Shown here one piece after another: positions 11 to 19,416 of a stretch of 27,244 nt of DNA. The DNA is from a virus. Below the pieces are notes generated by a model, which saw only the letters and a program-made list of their open reading frames with translations, searched no databases and had not been told where the DNA came from. The stretch is from positions 1-27,244 of IMG/VR virus record IMGVR_UViG_3300025645_000370; one strand, 5' to 3'. Each line of letters opens with the position of its first letter. Position 1 is the stretch's first letter. The position numbers and the translations under genes were made by a program.

Positions 11-778
11 TTATATTTTAGTTGTTAAATTGAAATTCTTGTTTACTACGAAGCCCGAAGTGTCATTTTTTGCCTCACCTTTGGCAATTAAACCTAAACA
101 AATGTTTTTTTGTCCAATCATAACTAAATCACTTTTATCACCATCTAGTACTACTTGACCTGAAAATAAGACGGGCAACTTTCCGTTAAAAACCACTGCA
201 GTATTAATCCCTTCTTTTATAGCTATTTTATAATCATTGTAGTTATCTTCCTTTCTACTAAAAGTTAGCGTATAATTAGGAGTATTTTTATATTTTAGGC
301 ACTTTCCGATTATAGCTGTATAATCATAAAAATGAACGTTTTTAGGTAATGTTTCTAAATTTAGCAAATCTCTATTAATTAGTTGACCAATCAGGTCTAT
401 ATCAGTTGTGCCGTTTAATCTAAAAAACACTTTTGCACCTTTAGCATTTTTTATAGCTTTATTAATTTCAAATGATAATTGTATTAAAAAATTACTCCTA
501 TCACCTACGTAATAATCTGCTTTATTCGTTCGGGCTTGTTGGACATTTGAGAATTTACCACGACCTGCCGTATAAAGACACGCTAGTAAACATCCTGCCG
601 AAGCTTTGGGGCAAAGATTTATACTTTTGAAATTCTGACGAGCTGGAGACATGTATAAAATGTATGAAATTTCTTTATTTTTAGCTGTTTTCGAATTGGT
701 AGTTCCTTTGCTCAAAAGTGCATTAACCCCGTAATTTTTTTTCGCTAGTTCCTTAATTGTTTTGATGTTTGCTTTCAT
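11..778 (-). CDS. gp88-family phage protein (function unknown)
   Basis: A 255-residue protein that I recognise as the phage 'gene product 88' family. Visible hallmarks are a three-cysteine cluster (C56, C63, C67) followed by AGRG, an R-x-x-K-A region near residue 83, and the segment RLNGTTDID near residue 119. The family has no established biochemical role as far as I know. Conserved clustered cysteines suggest a bound metal or iron-sulfur cluster, which is inference. It is the last gene of the left block and its start lies just past a strong terminator at 791-816, so expression depends on read-through or an unseen promoter. The start at 778 is preceded by the leader AACACACAAAGTT, like the leaders of the genes starting at 4405 and 10185. 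Confidence 0.75.
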   Translation of the reverse strand: MKANIKTIKELAKKNYGVNALLSKGTTNSKTAKNKEISYILYMSPARQNFKSINLCPKASAGCLLACLYTAGRGKFSNVQQARTNKADYYVGDRSNFLIQLSFEINKAIKNAKGAKVFFRLNGTTDIDLIGQLINRDLLNLETLPKNVHFYDYTAIIGKCLKYKNTPNYTLTFSRKEDNYNDYKIAIKEGINTAVVFNGKLPVLFSGQVVLDGDKSDLVMIGQKNICLGLIAKGEAKNDTSGFVVNKNFNLTTKI

Positions 779-1132: not shown

Positions 1133-1163
1133 AATATTTGCTTTTTAAGTTGTGATTAAATGA

Positions 1164-1262
1164 TTAGCGGTTAATTGCATTGTTTGCACCTTGTGTTTTT
1201 TTAAGTTTAACTATCAAGATAGTTGCGATTGTAACGATTGATAAAGAGATTAAAATTTCCAT
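1164..1262 (-). CDS. Mini membrane protein, 32 aa
   Basis: A 32-codon ORF. Residues 3-18 form one hydrophobic segment (ILISLSIVTIATILIV), followed by a basic stretch KLKK and a polar Asn-rich tail, the layout of a single-pass membrane peptide with a cytoplasmic basic flank. It is the first ORF after a candidate promoter with its -7 box at 1313-1320. Function unknown; phage mini membrane proteins of this kind can be inhibitors or holin-like, but nothing here shows that. The ORF could be chance, although a clean hydrophobic segment and its position directly behind a promoter argue for a real gene. Confidence 0.45.
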   Translation of the reverse strand: MEILISLSIVTIATILIVKLKKTQGANNAINR

Positions 1263-1294
1263 GTTTTAAAGGTTTTAATGATTATTATTATTTT

Positions 1295-1309
1295 TGTTCC
1301 TTTTGAACA
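1295..1309. promoter_or_regulatory. Operator-like palindrome TGTTC-N5-GAACA
   Basis: TGTTCCTTTTGAACA is a perfect 5-bp inverted repeat with a 5-base spacer. It lies where transcription from the adjacent candidate promoter (1313-1345) would begin, a typical place for repressor binding. The half-site also occurs in the iteron-like repeats and in the palindrome at 14323-14341. The binding protein is unknown. Confidence 0.35.
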
Positions 1310-1312
1310 GTA

Positions 1313-1345
1313 CAAACATATAACAAATAAGACTATAAACTACAA
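1313..1345 (-). promoter_or_regulatory. Candidate Bacteroidota-type promoter
   Basis: On the minus strand TATGTTTG (1320 to 1313) matches the -7 consensus TAnnTTTG; a TTG lies 22 bases upstream (1345-1343), slightly longer than the usual spacing. It would drive the genes at 1164-1262 and 833-1132. Weaker than the promoters at 2499, 4446, 6592 and 10608. Confidence 0.4.
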
Positions 1346-1478
1346 AAAAGTAATATTTTCGTTTAAGTGTATGATTTTACCGATGAACTACACAAAAAAG
1401 GGCAATAATCAAAAAGAAAATCAATAAACGGTAAAAATTCCTCAATGTACCTTAATTATGCGCACCTGTGAAAAAAAC

Positions 1479-1500
1479 ATCTTAATTATCCTAGTAAAAA
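1479..1500. repeat. 22-bp direct repeat, copy A
   Basis: This copy carries CTTAATTATCCTAGTAAAA in its core and matches the copy at 1723-1744 at 21 of 22 positions. A partial third copy (CTTAATTAT) sits at 1451-1459. The repeat is not in a conserved reading frame, so it acts as DNA or RNA, not as peptide. Confidence 0.75.
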
Positions 1501-1722
1501 GTGTTAAAGTTTATGCAACTTATCAACAATAAGAATTTTCTTACGTCTTAAAACCTTACTATCACTGCAATCTCGCTTCTAAGCGATTATTAACAATTAT
1601 TTAATATTAGGTCTCATTGGATGGCTGAAAGTGCCTAAAAAGCACCTTAAAATGCGAAATTGAGGTTATAAGATAGTTTAATTAAGCTATGAAACAAGGT
1701 AAAAGTATCACATACAAAAATA

Positions 1723-1744
1723 ATCTTAATTATCCTAGCAAAAA
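1723..1744. repeat. 22-bp direct repeat, copy B
   Basis: Same orientation as copy A at 1479-1500, with one difference (T to C after CCTAG). The two copies start 244 bp apart and bracket a hairpin-containing stretch in the gene-free region. Confidence 0.75.
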
Positions 1745-1899
1745 TATATTTTTTTTCGCTCGAAATTAGACGAGTAATAAATTACATTTGTAAATGTTAA
1801 AATATAGTGATATTGAAATAATTTAACACAAAAAGTTTGGAATTGACACTTTGTCATAAGTCGTAAGAAATTTCGGACAAACTGCCATATTGACACCGA

Positions 1900-2004
1900 C
1901 CCCCTTATATTGAACATACCCCCTTCTATTGAACATACGGGCAAATCACATACCCCCTTCTATTGAACGCTCGGAATATTTTCAACCCCCTTCTATTGAA
2001 CATA
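1900..2004. repeat. Four iteron-like repeats CCCCCTTCTATTGAACATA
   Basis: Four copies in the same orientation start at 1900, 1919, 1953 and 1986. The first two are directly abutting (19 bp); the later spacings are 34 and 33 bp. Copy 1 reads CCCCCTTATATTGAACATA and copy 3 ends in GAACGCT; copies 2 and 4 are identical. Repeats of this size, orientation and clustering are typical of iterons bound by a replication or partition protein, or of multiple operators. More divergent copies lie at 14287-14360. Confidence 0.8.
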
Positions 2005-2010
2005 CTAAAT

Positions 2011-2052
2011 AAAAAAAAGGATTAGCCAATTTATTTTTTTGTCTAATCCTTT
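2011..2052 (-). terminator. Rho-independent terminator
   Basis: On the minus strand AAAGGATTAG and CTAATCCTTT form a 10-bp stem around a 17-base AT-rich loop, followed by a run of eight T. It ends the transcript that carries the genes at 2086-2471 and shields the repeat array from it. Confidence 0.8.
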
Positions 2053-2865: not shown

Positions 2866-3396
2866 CTAATACCTTCCAGTATCAGCCATACGTTCAGCAT
2901 CCATTTTAAGCATCTTTAAGATAGGTTCAACCCTCTCGTTATACTTTGCCCTCAATTCCATCGGTAAAGTTCTGTAGACCTTCTCATTATCCGTTAAAAG
3001 CTCATCCTGCAACATTTCTACTTGTAAGTCCTTAGTAATATCCTTTGTGATGGTTCTAACGCTAGGCATTGAATTAGAGTTAAGAACACTCATAGCCCTG
3101 ATTAGTTTCTCCGCCAATTGATTTCTTAATGGATGGCGTTCATACGATGGATATATATTATTAGAGTTGTGTATAACCGTAGCATGGTCTCTATTGATTG
3201 GAATTCCAATTACCTCATAAGGAACTTTCTTGTCGAAGAACTTACGAGCCACCGCACAATAAACACTTCTAGCAATACAGTAATCTCTCTTTCTGGATTT
3301 GGTACTGATATCCATACCAGTCTCAATTAAAATGAATTCTACCATAGCATCTAAGGTAGTAAGGTCGTGCATTGTATTTTCTCTTGTGATTTTCAT
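2866..3396 (-). CDS. DnaA domain-IV-like DNA-binding protein
   Basis: A 176-residue protein whose first half matches the C-terminal DNA-binding domain of DnaA. Residues 39-80 contain a helical run with ARSVYCAVARKFF, and residues 67-81 read INRDHATVIHNSNNI, close to the DnaA signature GGRDHxTVxHA, with Arg, Asp, His and Thr kept. There is no AAA+ ATPase domain. Proteins of this kind in phages probably bind DnaA-box-like DNA and help recruit or block the initiator. The C-terminal half is helical and unknown. It follows the DUF932 gene after a terminator (3425-3449) and precedes the candidate origin region, which fits an origin-binding role (inference). Confidence 0.7.
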   Translation of the reverse strand: MKITRENTMHDLTTLDAMVEFILIETGMDISTKSRKRDYCIARSVYCAVARKFFDKKVPYEVIGIPINRDHATVIHNSNNIYPSYERHPLRNQLAEKLIRAMSVLNSNSMPSVRTITKDITKDLQVEMLQDELLTDNEKVYRTLPMELRAKYNERVEPILKMLKMDAERMADTGRY

Positions 3397-4998: not shown

Positions 4999-5661
4999 TT
5001 AAAATAAGTTTAATTTTAGTAGGCAATAGCATTGTATAAATCTTTCTCTAGCTTTATTTCTATAGATGTGACTGAATAAAGCAAACACCTCACGTACCAT
5101 ACCATACTCACTCTTGCCTGCCAGATTAGCCTCACACCACCTCTTACCATATCCCTTACAGTAGTTCACATTGTCTGCAGTATCACCAATAACCATCTGA
5201 CACCAGAAGTTGTACTGAGCCTCTTCTATTGAAGTCTCTATCCATTCTCTTTTGCGATAATTAAATATTTCACACGGAAATTGGAGGTAGTCTTTATCTA
5301 TTGATACACACACCATCTTATCCCCGTAGTGTTGAATATATTTCGCAACTAAATCATCAGTCTCTACTCCCCTTATGGAAAGAATGTCGTAGCTTAATAG
5401 TAATTCCTTCTTAACATCATCATACATTTTAGGTTTCTCTCCCCGTTGAGCCTTATACATAGGGTCTATGACCTTTCTGTAATTAGTTGGAGAAAATCCA
5501 CACAATATTATTTTCTTTACATAATATTTCCTCTTTACATGGTATATGATGTCTGCGAGGCGATGACCGAATCCGTCAACCGCCTCTTGAACATCCATTG
5601 CCCTAGATATGCTTTCGTAGACTAAAGAGTCAATATCAACTACAACAATCTTACTCTCCAT
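4999..5661 (-). CDS. 5'-3' exonuclease (FEN/T7 gp6-like)
   Basis: A 220-residue PIN-like/FEN-family nuclease. Metal-binding acidic residues sit where expected: D9 and D11 in VVVDID, E100, D102 and D103 in GVETDDL, D122 and D124 in SIDKDYLQF, and D160 and D163 in MVIGDTADNV, which opens the helix-3-turn-helix (to about residue 180). The YKAQRG segment near residue 69 fits the basic clamp. Such enzymes degrade DNA from 5' ends or remove flaps and RNA primers, consistent with its place among replication genes. The start overlaps the preceding dATP/dGTP diphosphohydrolase gene by 11 bases. Length is typical of phage members. Confidence 0.85.
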   Translation of the reverse strand: MESKIVVVDIDSLVYESISRAMDVQEAVDGFGHRLADIIYHVKRKYYVKKIILCGFSPTNYRKVIDPMYKAQRGEKPKMYDDVKKELLLSYDILSIRGVETDDLVAKYIQHYGDKMVCVSIDKDYLQFPCEIFNYRKREWIETSIEEAQYNFWCQMVIGDTADNVNYCKGYGKRWCEANLAGKSEYGMVREVFALFSHIYRNKARERFIQCYCLLKLNLF

Positions 5662-7643: not shown

Positions 7644-8132
7644 TTACTCTTCTTCTTCTTGTGTTGCTACTTCAACACCAATCTTGTAATACTGTTCTAG
7701 CTTACGAACCATCTTTACAAATCCCTTTTGAGAACAATTAACACACGCACTAGGAACCACCTCTCGTTTATCAAATACATAATTGTAAATGTCCACAAGT
7801 CTCTTTTGCATAGTAGCATCTAATCTTGTTCGTACCCTGCTAAAAAAGGATTGTAAGTACTCATAATCCTCTTGCTCAATACATTTAACCGCCTTTTGTC
7901 TAAAGGGGAACTTCTCATTCATAAGGTCTTTTCTAGCACCACATCCACAATCACCAAATAATGTATCCACAACAGTTTTAATACCAGTTGCCGTCGTAAT
8001 CGCTTCAACGACATCGCCTGCACCTTTGGGTGCATTCTCTATCTGTTTTAGCTTAAACTCCTTCCAAAGTTTATACTCCTTTGTACGCTTATCTAACTCC
8101 TTGTAGTAAGCATCATCTTTAAATTTTGTCAT
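7644..8132 (-). CDS. Hypothetical protein with CGC and CVNC cysteines, 162 aa
   Basis: A charged protein with a central segment VTTATGIKTVVDTLFGDCGCGARKD (in parts: DCGCGARK near residue 61) and a later CVNC pair near residue 130. I associate this type with flavobacterial phages but know no function. The two cysteine pairs could bind one zinc ion. The C-terminus is an acidic EEEE tail. The start overlaps the end of the sigma-like gene by 14 bases, so the two are co-translated. Confidence 0.6.
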   Translation of the reverse strand: MTKFKDDAYYKELDKRTKEYKLWKEFKLKQIENAPKGAGDVVEAITTATGIKTVVDTLFGDCGCGARKDLMNEKFPFRQKAVKCIEQEDYEYLQSFFSRVRTRLDATMQKRLVDIYNYVFDKREVVPSACVNCSQKGFVKMVRKLEQYYKIGVEVATQEEEE

Positions 8133-8649
8133 AATCTCCGTTTTTTAAATCCTCGAAATCCTCTTCGAACTTATCCAAGATAATCTCTTTGTATTTATTA
8201 ATATTTTGATGGATATGAGTAACACCTATTCCAGTACCACTTGATATATCCCTCATGCTAAAATCTGTTTTAAAATAGACGTTAAATAACTTAGAATGAT
8301 AAGAACCCCAAGAATCGCTTTCTATCTGAATCTTGTCCATTATCTTCTGATAAGCCTCCTCATATTCAAAATCACTTTCCTCATCAGCCCAATTATAAAA
8401 GTCCTCCCAGTTACTATAAAAACTCTCATGCTTCGCTAGTGTTCGGAATGTATTTCTTACTACAGAGAACATATAGAAAGTATTTACTTCATTGTCTGGT
8501 AAGATAATCTTATGATAAACTGTTGGTGAATACTTGTGTAATCGGATGTAAGCCTCCTGAACTACATCCTCTGCTAAATGAGCAGGGCAACCATTAGCAA
8601 TTGCCATGGCTACCCATTCATCATGTCTTTGAACAAGTATTTCTAACAT
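8119..8649 (-). CDS. Sigma-70-like (ECF-type) transcription factor
   Basis: A 176-residue protein with features of a minimal sigma factor. Residues 26-40 (AEDVVQEAYIRLHKY) match region 2.2, the core-RNA-polymerase contact; residues 56-73 (NTFYMFSVVRNTFRTLAK) resemble the region 2.3/2.4 helix; a long acidic linker follows; residues 129-156 (DFSMRDISSGTGIGVTHIHQNINKY) resemble the region 4 helix-turn-helix that binds the -35 element. It could redirect host polymerase to phage promoters. Ambiguity remains because some phage HTH proteins mimic this layout. It lies in the middle of the replication transcript, overlapping the next gene. Confidence 0.65.
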   Translation of the reverse strand: MLEILVQRHDEWVAMAIANGCPAHLAEDVVQEAYIRLHKYSPTVYHKIILPDNEVNTFYMFSVVRNTFRTLAKHESFYSNWEDFYNWADEESDFEYEEAYQKIMDKIQIESDSWGSYHSKLFNVYFKTDFSMRDISSGTGIGVTHIHQNINKYKEIILDKFEEDFEDLKNGDYDKI

Positions 8650-13259: not shown

Positions 13260-13445
13260 TTAGTTCATCCAACTCTCAACAATAACCCCAATTAACCAAT
13301 AACAACTAATAATACCTAAGAATGCTAATCCCGAAATAGTAACCTTTAGCGATTGAGGCTGATTTTCATCTTTCAATAGTTGAGGCAAAGTGTGTACATT
13401 AGATAGTGTAAAAATTAAACATACAATTAAAACAACATAATTCAT
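13260..13445 (-). CDS. Small two-TM membrane protein, 61 aa
   Basis: Two hydrophobic segments, residues 3-18 and 36-56, separated by a charged loop (LLKDENQPQSLK). The size and topology fit a small phage membrane protein such as a holin or antiholin, but also many others. It is the first gene of the replication module, after the gene-free boundary, and its stop directly abuts the next start. No motif allows a firmer call. Confidence 0.5.
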   Translation of the reverse strand: MNYVVLIVCLIFTLSNVHTLPQLLKDENQPQSLKVTISGLAFLGIISCYWLIGVIVESWMN

Positions 13446-13481: not shown

Positions 13482-13511
13482 AAAAAAAGGGAAACCGATT
13501 AAAGCCTCCCT
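13482..13511 (-). terminator. Rho-independent terminator
   Basis: On the minus strand GGGAGGC pairs with GGTTTCCC (two G-T wobbles) around a short loop, followed by seven T. It would stop late transcripts before they enter the replication module. Confidence 0.65.
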
Positions 13512-13674
13512 CCATCTATTAAACACCAAACATCACAAACACAATTCAAATATAAGGGTAAATGATAGTATTATTTGTTGATAATGTAGTCTGTTATCAA
13601 CTATTTCAATCAGTATACAAAAAGCATAGGTATCCCGTATTGAACATTACTTTGAATAAATTTAAACCGAGGTT

Positions 13675-13792: not shown

Positions 13793-14284
13793 TTAACGTT
13801 TTCCTATTAAAGGTGTTTTATCCTTTGAACCTTGGCTTGAACCAAAGAAAAAGTTGAATATAGAACCTAGTCCATTACCAACCACAATACCTAATATAAA
13901 ATTTATAACATCCCTATTCTCAGTGGGTATGTCTATGAAAAATAATAAAAGAACTATTACACACGCAAAAGCAAATGTACCTATTGATAAATAATAAAGG
14001 AATCGCTTCGAGAATATATCGTCCTGCTTTAGGGCAGTCCTCTGTAATTCTCTCGCATCCTTCAAGTCGGCTAAGTCTAACTCGGCTTGTTTTAATATAT
14101 CTTCTTTGGTTTCTTTTGTGATAGTAGGGTCTGTTGCTACCAATGCCTTAACCGCTCCAAACCAATCACCAGTACCTATCTCTCCAGCTACGTTAACCGC
14201 CTTCTCTAAGATATTACTCTTTCCAATTGAACGCAATAAATCTCCTACTCTTGTAGTTCCGTTCCTTTCTTTATAATCTCCCAT
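13793..14284 (-). CDS. Holin, GTA-holin/3TM-like
   Basis: A 163-residue protein: an N-terminal soluble part, an amphipathic segment LADLKDARELQRTALKQDDIFSKRFLYYL (in parts from residue 71), two membrane segments (about 96-118 and 125-147) and a tail SSQGSKDKT. This matches the GTA_holin_3TM-type phage proteins, with the QDD-x-SKR-F and GNGLGSIFNFFFGSSQGSK features. It would permeabilise the inner membrane so that the endolysin, encoded directly upstream, can reach the cell wall. It is the last gene of the late module, and an iteron-like copy lies immediately before its start. Confidence 0.7.
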   Translation of the reverse strand: MGDYKERNGTTRVGDLLRSIGKSNILEKAVNVAGEIGTGDWFGAVKALVATDPTITKETKEDILKQAELDLADLKDARELQRTALKQDDIFSKRFLYYLSIGTFAFACVIVLLLFFIDIPTENRDVINFILGIVVGNGLGSIFNFFFGSSQGSKDKTPLIGKR

Positions 14285-14286
14285 AA

Positions 14287-14360
14287 CCCTCTTCTATTAA
14301 ACATCCGTTCATTATATTGCTATGTTCATTGTCACTGAACACCCTATTCTATTGAACGTC
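14287..14360. repeat. Two divergent iteron-like repeats with a palindrome between
   Basis: CCCTCTTCTATTAAACATC (14287-14305) and CCCTATTCTATTGAACGTC (14342-14360) match the 1900-2004 repeats at most positions. Between them lies the palindrome TGTTCATTGTCACTGAACA (14323-14341) and another GTTCA half-site near 14307. The cluster fills the only gap in the lysis cassette, between endolysin and holin genes. Confidence 0.65.
14323..14341. promoter_or_regulatory. Operator-like palindrome TGTTCA-N7-TGAACA
   Basis: Perfect 6-bp inverted repeat with a 7-base spacer, upstream of the holin gene. Shares the GAACA half-site with the iteron-like repeats and with the palindrome at 1295-1309, which suggests one protein could bind all of them. 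The regulator is not identified. Confidence 0.4.
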
Positions 14361-14831
14361 TTATTCCCAATTTTTATACTTAGTTCTTCCTTTGTCATCG
14401 GTATAAGCTACCAATACTTGACCTCTATTATTTCCTTCTGAATACGATACATGAACCCAAGCAGGATTTTTATGTGTTCCGAATTCCCATATTAATTGGT
14501 CGAACTCTACGTTCTCCCTTAACCAATCAAATAATTCAGCATTGGTTATTTCACCAAATACATCACAATCGATATCAATCGCTTCACCTCTCATATGAGA
14601 AGAAGAACTAGAACCTCCTGCCTTACGATTAACAGCTAGACTCCGATAAAAAGAGGATATGAATAACGGAACATTAAAATGTTCCCTTGCAGGCTGAAAT
14701 ACGTTTTCAGCAGTTATCTTCATCTGTTTTAAGATGTCTATGTTTGGTCTATTATTAAGACCATACCTTTGTGCTACACTAGACCTTACAGCCTCGTTAT
14801 AGCTAATGTTTTTACTTATATTATTACCCAT
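14361..14831 (-). CDS. Endolysin, peptidase M15 (D,D-/L,D-carboxypeptidase-like)
   Basis: A 156-residue M15 zinc peptidase. The site is complete: S78-H79-M-R-G-E-A-I-D86 matches SxHxxGxAxD, and W126-V-H127 near the C-terminus supplies the last ligand. The middle segment LFISSFYRSLAVNRKAGG is the family's SGYRSxxxNxxVGG. It cleaves peptide cross-links in peptidoglycan at the end of infection. There is no signal peptide, so release depends on a holin, in line with the membrane proteins encoded around it. The C-terminal part RGQVLVAYTDDKGRTKYKNW is usual for this group. Overlaps the gene upstream by 8 bases. Confidence 0.85.
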   Translation of the reverse strand: MGNNISKNISYNEAVRSSVAQRYGLNNRPNIDILKQMKITAENVFQPAREHFNVPLFISSFYRSLAVNRKAGGSSSSSHMRGEAIDIDCDVFGEITNAELFDWLRENVEFDQLIWEFGTHKNPAWVHVSYSEGNNRGQVLVAYTDDKGRTKYKNWE

Positions 14832-18436: not shown

Positions 18437-18786
18437 TAATCATCTATTTTATATGTAGAGTCCTCTTGAGCAGTATCAATATTAAACTCTCCACTATTAA
18501 TTGTTTCGTTATAATCTGCAACATCTGTACAATAAACTTTATCTCTATAAAGCAATGTACCTTCATCGTCTAAAATCTCCATAAAGTAAGATTCATTCAT
18601 AATAAGAGCAGAACAATCTAATTCAAAAGAATTTACATTTGAACCGATATTAGGGAATGCAGTGTCGCTCACTACCGACCTTTCTCCGTCTCTTCGAAGA
18701 GTTATAGTGTAAGCCCTAGAATAATTTTTATCCCTAGGAAGTACATAAATAACATTAACTCCTGCTGTTGGATTTACTATTGTCAT
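18436..18786 (-). CDS. Small structural protein, 116 aa
   Basis: A beta-rich, acidic protein with an AYTITLRRDGERS segment and a FELDCSALIMNESYFMEILDDEG stretch, ending in an acidic tail. I do not recognise the family; the position between tail tube and portal genes suggests a minor capsid or tail component. The start shares one base with the portal gene's 5' neighbour stop. It lies after a terminator (18827-18858), so it receives less transcript than the tail tube gene. Confidence 0.55.
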   Translation of the reverse strand: MTIVNPTAGVNVIYVLPRDKNYSRAYTITLRRDGERSVVSDTAFPNIGSNVNSFELDCSALIMNESYFMEILDDEGTLLYRDKVYCTDVADYNETINSGEFNIDTAQEDSTYKIDD

Positions 18787-18826
18787 ACTATAATACTAGA
18801 AAGTAGTGTTTTTGTTTTTATTATAC

Positions 18827-18858
18827 AAAAAAAGGGTCTCGCACTAAGCAAAGACCCC
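18827..18858 (-). terminator. Rho-independent terminator inside the late operon
   Basis: On the minus strand GGGTCT pairs with AGACCC around a 12-base loop (with possible GC closing inside), followed by seven T. It lies after the tail tube gene and would lower transcription of the portal and lysis genes relative to capsid and tube genes. Confidence 0.75.
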
Positions 18859-18885
18859 TCCTTTCTGTTAAATATTAAAGCGTTA

Positions 18886-19416
18886 TTACACTCCGACTAC
18901 TATTGTACCTCCAGAAGTTGTTAAGTCAACATCAAGGAAGTTAGCAGGAGTTCTTTCCATTCCAGTTAGCGTTAAGGTATATCCACTCAAGTCTCCCATT
19001 GCTTGACCCGTTACGATAGTACCTCCAGTTACTTCCATACCGTTTAGTAATCCTGCAACATAGAATTGACCATTTTGGTCTTCAATTACAACGTGAGGGT
19101 GACCCCAAGCTAGTAATTTAATTTCCTTATGGTCTTCTTTTGTAAGTCTTGGTAATGTCAACTCCAATGATTGCTCAAAGGCAGTTGTACCGTTCTCAGA
19201 AGAACTTTGAATATTTTGAGTAAAGCTAGAAGAGAAATGAACTTCGTATTTGTAAGCAGAAACCCCAACACCTAAAGTATCGATAACATCCGTATCGGTT
19301 ACATTGTAAACAAGACCATCTATGTCACCATAATTGATGAAGTAGATATTCTTGATACCACCAACAGAATCTTTACAAGGTTTTAATCTACCTAATGATA
19401 AATTTTCGCAAGCCAT
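18886..19416 (-). CDS. Major tail tube protein (likely)
   Basis: A 176-residue protein. It opens with MACENLSLGRLKPCKDSVGGIKN, spread over residues 1-23, and contains ENGTTAFEQSLELTLPRLTKED, then IKLLAWGHPHVVIEDQNGQFYVAG, then VTGGTIVTGQAMGDLSGYTLTLTG. I associate this pattern with the tail tube subunits of Bacteroidota siphophages. Tube subunits stack as hexamers around the tape measure. High expression is suggested by its place after the major capsid gene and before a terminator (18827-18858). Confidence 0.65.
   Translation of the reverse strand: MACENLSLGRLKPCKDSVGGIKNIYFINYGDIDGLVYNVTDTDVIDTLGVGVSAYKYEVHFSSSFTQNIQSSSENGTTAFEQSLELTLPRLTKEDHKEIKLLAWGHPHVVIEDQNGQFYVAGLLNGMEVTGGTIVTGQAMGDLSGYTLTLTGMERTPANFLDVDLTTSGGTIVVGV

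Follow-up and report, generated by a model that had tools for sequence, protein, structure and literature searches.

At the replication origin of phage lambda, the O protein acts at four iterons, binding these repeats and recruiting the helicase to the adjoining AT-rich DNA. A different kind of directional repeat is represented by the stoperators of the cluster A mycobacteriophages, such as L5 and Bxb1 (PMC6550527, PMC9283540), and the bacterial initiator DnaA recognizes the DnaA box, TTATCCACA (PMC8203912). Here, we describe an array of direct repeats in a virus fragment of 27,244 bp (hereafter “the window,” meaning the whole stretch of DNA that was analyzed; the terminase genes are not in it), along with similar arrays in related phages, and compare it with these systems. 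The best explanation, which we put forward tentatively, is that the array binds a protein at operon boundaries.

Repeat Array and Its Setting

The window contains, at positions 1900 to 2004, four direct copies of CCCCCTTCTATTGAACATA on the plus strand, with start-to-start spacing of 19, 34, and 33 bp (Table 1). The initial annotation had described four same-direction copies with one abutting pair, and this description holds: a search with the 16-mer CCCCCTTCTATTGAAC, allowing up to 3 mismatches, finds 8 matches in the window, all on the same strand, whereas 100 dinucleotide shuffles yielded 0.33 on average and never more than 3. Beyond the four array copies, three of the four other matches are intergenic (13509-13524, 14287-14302, and 14342-14357), and the remaining one (5219-5234) falls inside a gene. 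The three dispersed intergenic copies are weaker and more degenerate than those in the array; together, they bring the total to seven sites, 7/7 on one strand and 7/7 intergenic. Because every gene in the window is encoded on the minus strand, the printed form of the repeat is antisense to all of them. A degenerate fifth copy, CCATATTGACACC, possibly adjoins array copy 1 (approximately 1880-1897, plus strand).

The array is located in a gene-free stretch (1133-2085), as claimed in the same annotation, although its size is ~950 bp rather than ~820 bp. Two 29-bp direct repeats that are 90% identical (1472-1500 and 1716-1744) are also found there. The intrinsic terminator just outside the array serves the gene to its right, 2086-2217. 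The host-type promoter listed in Table 1, which was identified using the Bacteroidetes -33/-7 consensus (PMC6847099), is a weak candidate, with a G at a disfavored position of the -7 box. Rfam and tRNA searches produced no match.

Table 1. Positions of the repeats, genes, and other features discussed in this work
Feature	Position	Strand	Remarks
Array copy 1, CCCCCTTATATTGAACATA	1900..1918	+	core TTGAACAT; A in place of C at position 8
Array copy 2, CCCCCTTCTATTGAACATA	1919..1937	+	abutting copy 1
Array copy 3, CCCCCTTCTATTGAACGCT	1953..1971	+	core TTGAACGC; GAACGCT at the end, versus GAACATA
Array copy 4, CCCCCTTCTATTGAACATA	1986..2004	+	
Dispersed copy, CCTCCATCTATTAAACACC	13509..13527	+	intergenic, 64 bp upstream of minus-strand gene 13260-13445
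Dispersed copy, CCCTCTTCTATTAAACATC	14287..14305	+	2 bp upstream of the start codon of minus-strand gene 13793-14284
Dispersed copy, CCCTATTCTATTGAACGTC	14342..14360	+	ends exactly at the stop codon of endolysin gene 14361-14831
AT-rich gene-free stretch past the array	1133..1899	.	GC 0.27 versus 0.36 genome-wide
Intrinsic terminator	~2013..2052	-	hairpin AAAGGATTAG.../...CTAATCCTTT, then T run; between gene 2086-2217 and the array
Possible host-type promoter (Bacteroidetes -33/-7)	1313..1346	-	TTTG...TATGTTTG; ahead of genes 833-1132 and 11-778
GP88-family gene	11..778	-	synteny anchor with the arrays of G001, G003, G025, and G029
Ribbon-helix-helix-like ORF, 43 aa	2086..2217	-	adjoins the array; ParD-like, E 0.0036, below cutoff
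DnaA domain IV-like protein, 176 aa	2866..3396	-	candidate binder; Bac_DnaA_C 1.5e-8
Second motif, GTTATNTTATTATG / CGTTAATATAGTATG	window 18770-18890; c9 start in relatives; P12024L 167, 3019, 24759	- (window)	
Segatella copri repeat	L200 3700-4075		22-bp period
Flavobacterium silvisoli repeat	L202 2514-2700		42-bp period

Arrays in the Phage Family

The window phage belongs to a family of ~35-kb phages that are related to the Nonlabens phages P12024L/S and have Bacteroidetes-type hosts. A search of IMG/VR with the window portal protein retrieved 39 loci, comprising 38 relatives (26 to 62% identity) and L013, a fragment of the same phage as the window. The only named phages matched by this protein were Nonlabens P12024L/S, at 35% identity. 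The analysis revealed no close relative of the window phage. The capsid, portal, and tape genes are common to the window, the 27 relatives available as whole records, and P12024L, with few gaps. A sigma-factor-like gene (8119-8649 in the window, minus strand) is kept in most of the family.

The recurrence of the repeat in related phages, proposed as a check in the initial annotation, turned out to be partial: no other viral contig has the 19-mer itself as an array, and what is found in the relatives, in matching places, is a motif with the same core. IMG/VR loci L001 to L006 were rejected as members, as each has a single 16-mer match, no more than expected by chance; in L001 and L003, this match is inside a gene. 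The relatives' motif, TTAAAC(GC/AT)A(G/A)TAGG (TTAAACRYARTAGG), surfaced in a de novo repeat search and is carried by most relatives in arrays of 2 to 6; a literature search found no description of it. A database scan for two copies detected at least 307 strict sites in at least 80 loci. Among the matches listed, 307/307 are on the majority coding strand, in every locus, and 258 of the 307 are intergenic.

In every one of the 21 relatives that have both the motif and the large-terminase gene, the main array comes after this gene, and in 16 of them it is no more than 30 nt from the stop codon. Arrays are also found before the GP88 gene (in G001, G003, G025, and G029) and between head genes c3 and c9, and the motif is found between the endolysin gene and the next gene in G006, G024, and G026. 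In the majority of relatives, a single genome has two to four of these places, and many sites begin no more than 3 nt from a stop codon. Arrays are absent in six more distant relatives (G007, G008, G011, G014, G016, and P12024L).

Neighboring copies of TTAAACRYARTAGG are spaced by 17, 19, 21, 23 ... 33 bp, almost always an odd number: among independent spacers (loci L079 to L158, records G023 to G039), 64 are odd and 13 are even (P = 3e-9). Helical phasing and hairpins both fail to explain this strict pattern; the window spacings (19, 33, and 34) are too few to judge the rule.

Several side observations concern the relatives. The two ends of G028 (1262-1317 and 35187-35263) carry the same terminase-end array in 3 and 4 copies, respectively, a difference that suggests copy-number variation within a population. 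In locus L063 (G003), the region that separates the TTAAAC array from GP88 has an additional direct repeat, around CCCGATCCGATAACGTCACC, at 5037-5187. A second short motif type, GTTATNTTATTATG / CGTTAATATAGTATG, overlaps the start codons of some genes and may serve as a late promoter or as a start signal. The relatives' 14-mer is also seen inside bacterial tandem repeats between convergent genes, in Segatella copri and Flavobacterium silvisoli. These arrays were not counted as members because they are single tandem repeats, with no gene of the phage family nearby, and because of the chance expectation estimated for a database of that size.

A Common Core in the Window and in the Relatives

The two motifs have in common an 8-bp core, TTRAACRY, detected by a local comparison with the plus strand of the window repeat (P ~ 0.005, 8 columns); the full-length comparison is not significant (P ~ 0.2). 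Aligned on the same strand, the two motifs match no better than chance (P = 0.85), and the opposite-strand core match is therefore preferred. At all seven window sites, TTRAAC is followed by a purine-pyrimidine step, with a chance probability of 4e-5. The last two core bases vary among copies but remain purine-pyrimidine in the window as well as in the relatives: core TTGAACGC of array copy 3 represents the GC form of this step, and in the relatives the GC-to-AT swap is tolerated even inside one array. Relative to the genes, the core is oriented oppositely in the window and in the relatives, with the window core facing against transcription.

Clusters of at least three TTRAACRY cores in 160 bp are found only in element-bearing genomes. 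Within the window, they occur in two places, both of them the expected ones, on the opposite strand relative to the genes. With the array ahead of GP88 and the dispersed pair after the endolysin gene, the window positions match those of the relatives' arrays. We consider the two elements, with moderate confidence, to be counterparts, and infer that this correspondence would extend to their function.

Candidate Binding Proteins

The initial annotation also placed a DnaA-domain-IV-like gene near the array, and this assignment was borne out: the protein encoded at 2866-3396, 0.9 kb from the window array, scores 35 bits with Bac_DnaA_C, versus the curated cutoff of 31.5, matching domain IV only. 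In the relatives, its gene is upstream of the terminase genes. Such a protein is encoded by nearly all phages of the family, including relatives without any array. Its best solved structure is 1j1v (4e-10), and the fold of this DnaA-like family can be regarded as settled from sequence. The residues aligned to R399 and R407 of Escherichia coli DnaA are invariant in 22/22 homologues, and H434 is kept in at least 90%; from the DnaA-DNA structure, we take these three to be the DNA-contact residues.

The core TTRAACRY departs from the DnaA box chiefly at position 4; for a resemblance of this kind, at one mismatch, we estimate a chance of a few per cent. Clusters of the exact 9-mer TTATCCACA (TTWTNCACA) were not found in any genome examined. 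Few genes of the family evolve as fast as that of the DnaA-like protein (median identity, 27%), whereas the relatives' motif is nearly fixed, a combination that a conserved host factor as the binder would explain at least equally well. The argument that such divergence excludes the DnaA-like protein as the binder is weakened by the conservation of the contact residues. As the sole conserved protein with a plausible target, the DnaA-domain-IV-like protein is the most likely candidate binder.

Proposed Role and Alternative Explanations

The reading that we favor is that of a cluster of asymmetric DNA-binding sites, which would act as a multicopy operator or boundary element between transcription units. 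The family keeps these sites at a few fixed junctions, following the large terminase, preceding the accessory/GP88 genes, and following the endolysin. The core TTRAACRY would be recognized by the DnaA-domain-IV-like protein that the phage itself encodes, with added specificity from the flanking half (CCCYCTTCTA in the window, AGTAGG in the relatives), and the binding may affect transcription. The relatives' arrays show no RNA structure (mean z, +0.5), which favors a DNA-level role. A promoter role for the array was rejected, as host-type promoters are found downstream of the terminase-end arrays in nine relatives, placing these arrays between the end of one operon and the promoter, and so was a promoter for the phage sigma-like factor, which is also present in relatives without arrays.

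A broader proposal, rather improbable as a whole, is that the family relies on a directional site system not described before (TTRAACRY core, exchangeable half-site, and odd spacing), read by a stand-alone DnaA-domain-IV protein and controlling operon boundaries or replication, in which the window phage has switched both half-site and direction. Should the favored reading be right, it would define the regulatory or replication sites of a phage group with Bacteroidetes-type hosts that is common but has hardly been studied, and the phage DnaA-domain-IV-like protein, which is widespread, would gain a target that can be tested.

Possible, though not probable, is an iteron-cluster origin, where the DnaA-domain-IV-like protein would bind and bring in a helicase, from the phage or the host, to act on the AT-rich DNA without genes next to it. 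Direct repeats of iteron length, four to six in number, adjoin a gene-free stretch, the gene for this protein is close to the array in the window and precedes the terminase genes in the relatives, and the core is DnaA-box-like. However, instead of being confined to an origin region, the sites occupy, in most genomes, between two and four junctions that are separate from each other; some relatives have a gap that is not AT-rich (GC 0.36 to 0.37 in G001, G025, and G038); and cumulative GC skew runs monotonically, without a turning point at the array, where the initial annotation had proposed to look for a minimum. Of its iteron origin reading, the directional, putatively protein-binding repeats fit, and the DnaA-like link (core and contact residues) is supported by the relatives; the sites in other gaps and the monotone skew speak against a simple iteron origin.

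Unlikely on balance is a stoperator-like roadblock, with a repressor-type protein on directional sites halting RNA polymerase at gene ends. The sites are asymmetric, mostly intergenic, often next to a stop codon, and in one orientation per genome (307/307 listed sites sense in the relatives, 7/7 on one strand in the window). Furthermore, no intrinsic terminator is found within 1 kb downstream of the terminase in most relatives with arrays, whereas G007, G008, and G014, which have no arrays, have one. Yet the sites at the c3-c9 junction are just before an intrinsic terminator, the array is behind one in the window, G001, and G003, the window core faces against transcription, and no repressor or integrase was recognized among the 20 G028 proteins scanned against Pfam.

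Packaging sites for the small terminase (pac/cosB-like) are quite unlikely. In the relatives, the terminase genes directly adjoin the main array, and only genomes with arrays have the small-terminase-like cluster c21, but this co-occurrence is confounded by kinship, additional arrays are 1 to 20 kb away, including at lysis and head gene junctions, and the window array does not adjoin terminase genes. An RNA-level element in 3' or 5' untranslated regions would account for the relatives' motif strand always matching the transcript, but it is highly improbable, given neither a folding nor a pairing signal across the motif (RNA hairpins were rejected on the same grounds), a GC-to-AT swap within one array, unlike an antisense target, and a window array behind a terminator. 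The partition operator of the initial annotation, or a toxin-antitoxin operator, for the adjacent ribbon-helix-helix gene with its weak ParD-like match has very little probability: this gene is found only in the window phage and in none of the array-bearing relatives, no ParA or toxin partner was recognized among the genes scanned, and the dispersed sites are near unrelated genes.

Comparison with Known Systems

Like DnaA boxes, the core is accompanied by a cognate-type protein encoded nearby, with its contact residues kept, and departs from the box mainly at one position; in contrast to DnaA boxes, there is an extra conserved half-site outside the 9-mer, and the match of the 176-aa protein is to domain IV only. 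The window array resembles lambda ori and iteron plasmids in that direct copies of ~19 bp, about four of them, are located next to AT-rich DNA, but differs from them in that copies are also found at other junctions, the skew gives no signal, and the initiator is only a candidate. The differences from the cluster A stoperators include the tandem arrays with odd spacing, an unrelated sequence, a window core that faces against transcription, and no repressor recognized among the G028 proteins scanned. In both systems, asymmetric 13- to 14-bp sites are found in many copies per genome, in one orientation, in short intergenic gaps and at gene ends, and the motif varies across the clade. Stoperators are the closest described arrangement, and iterons are the next.
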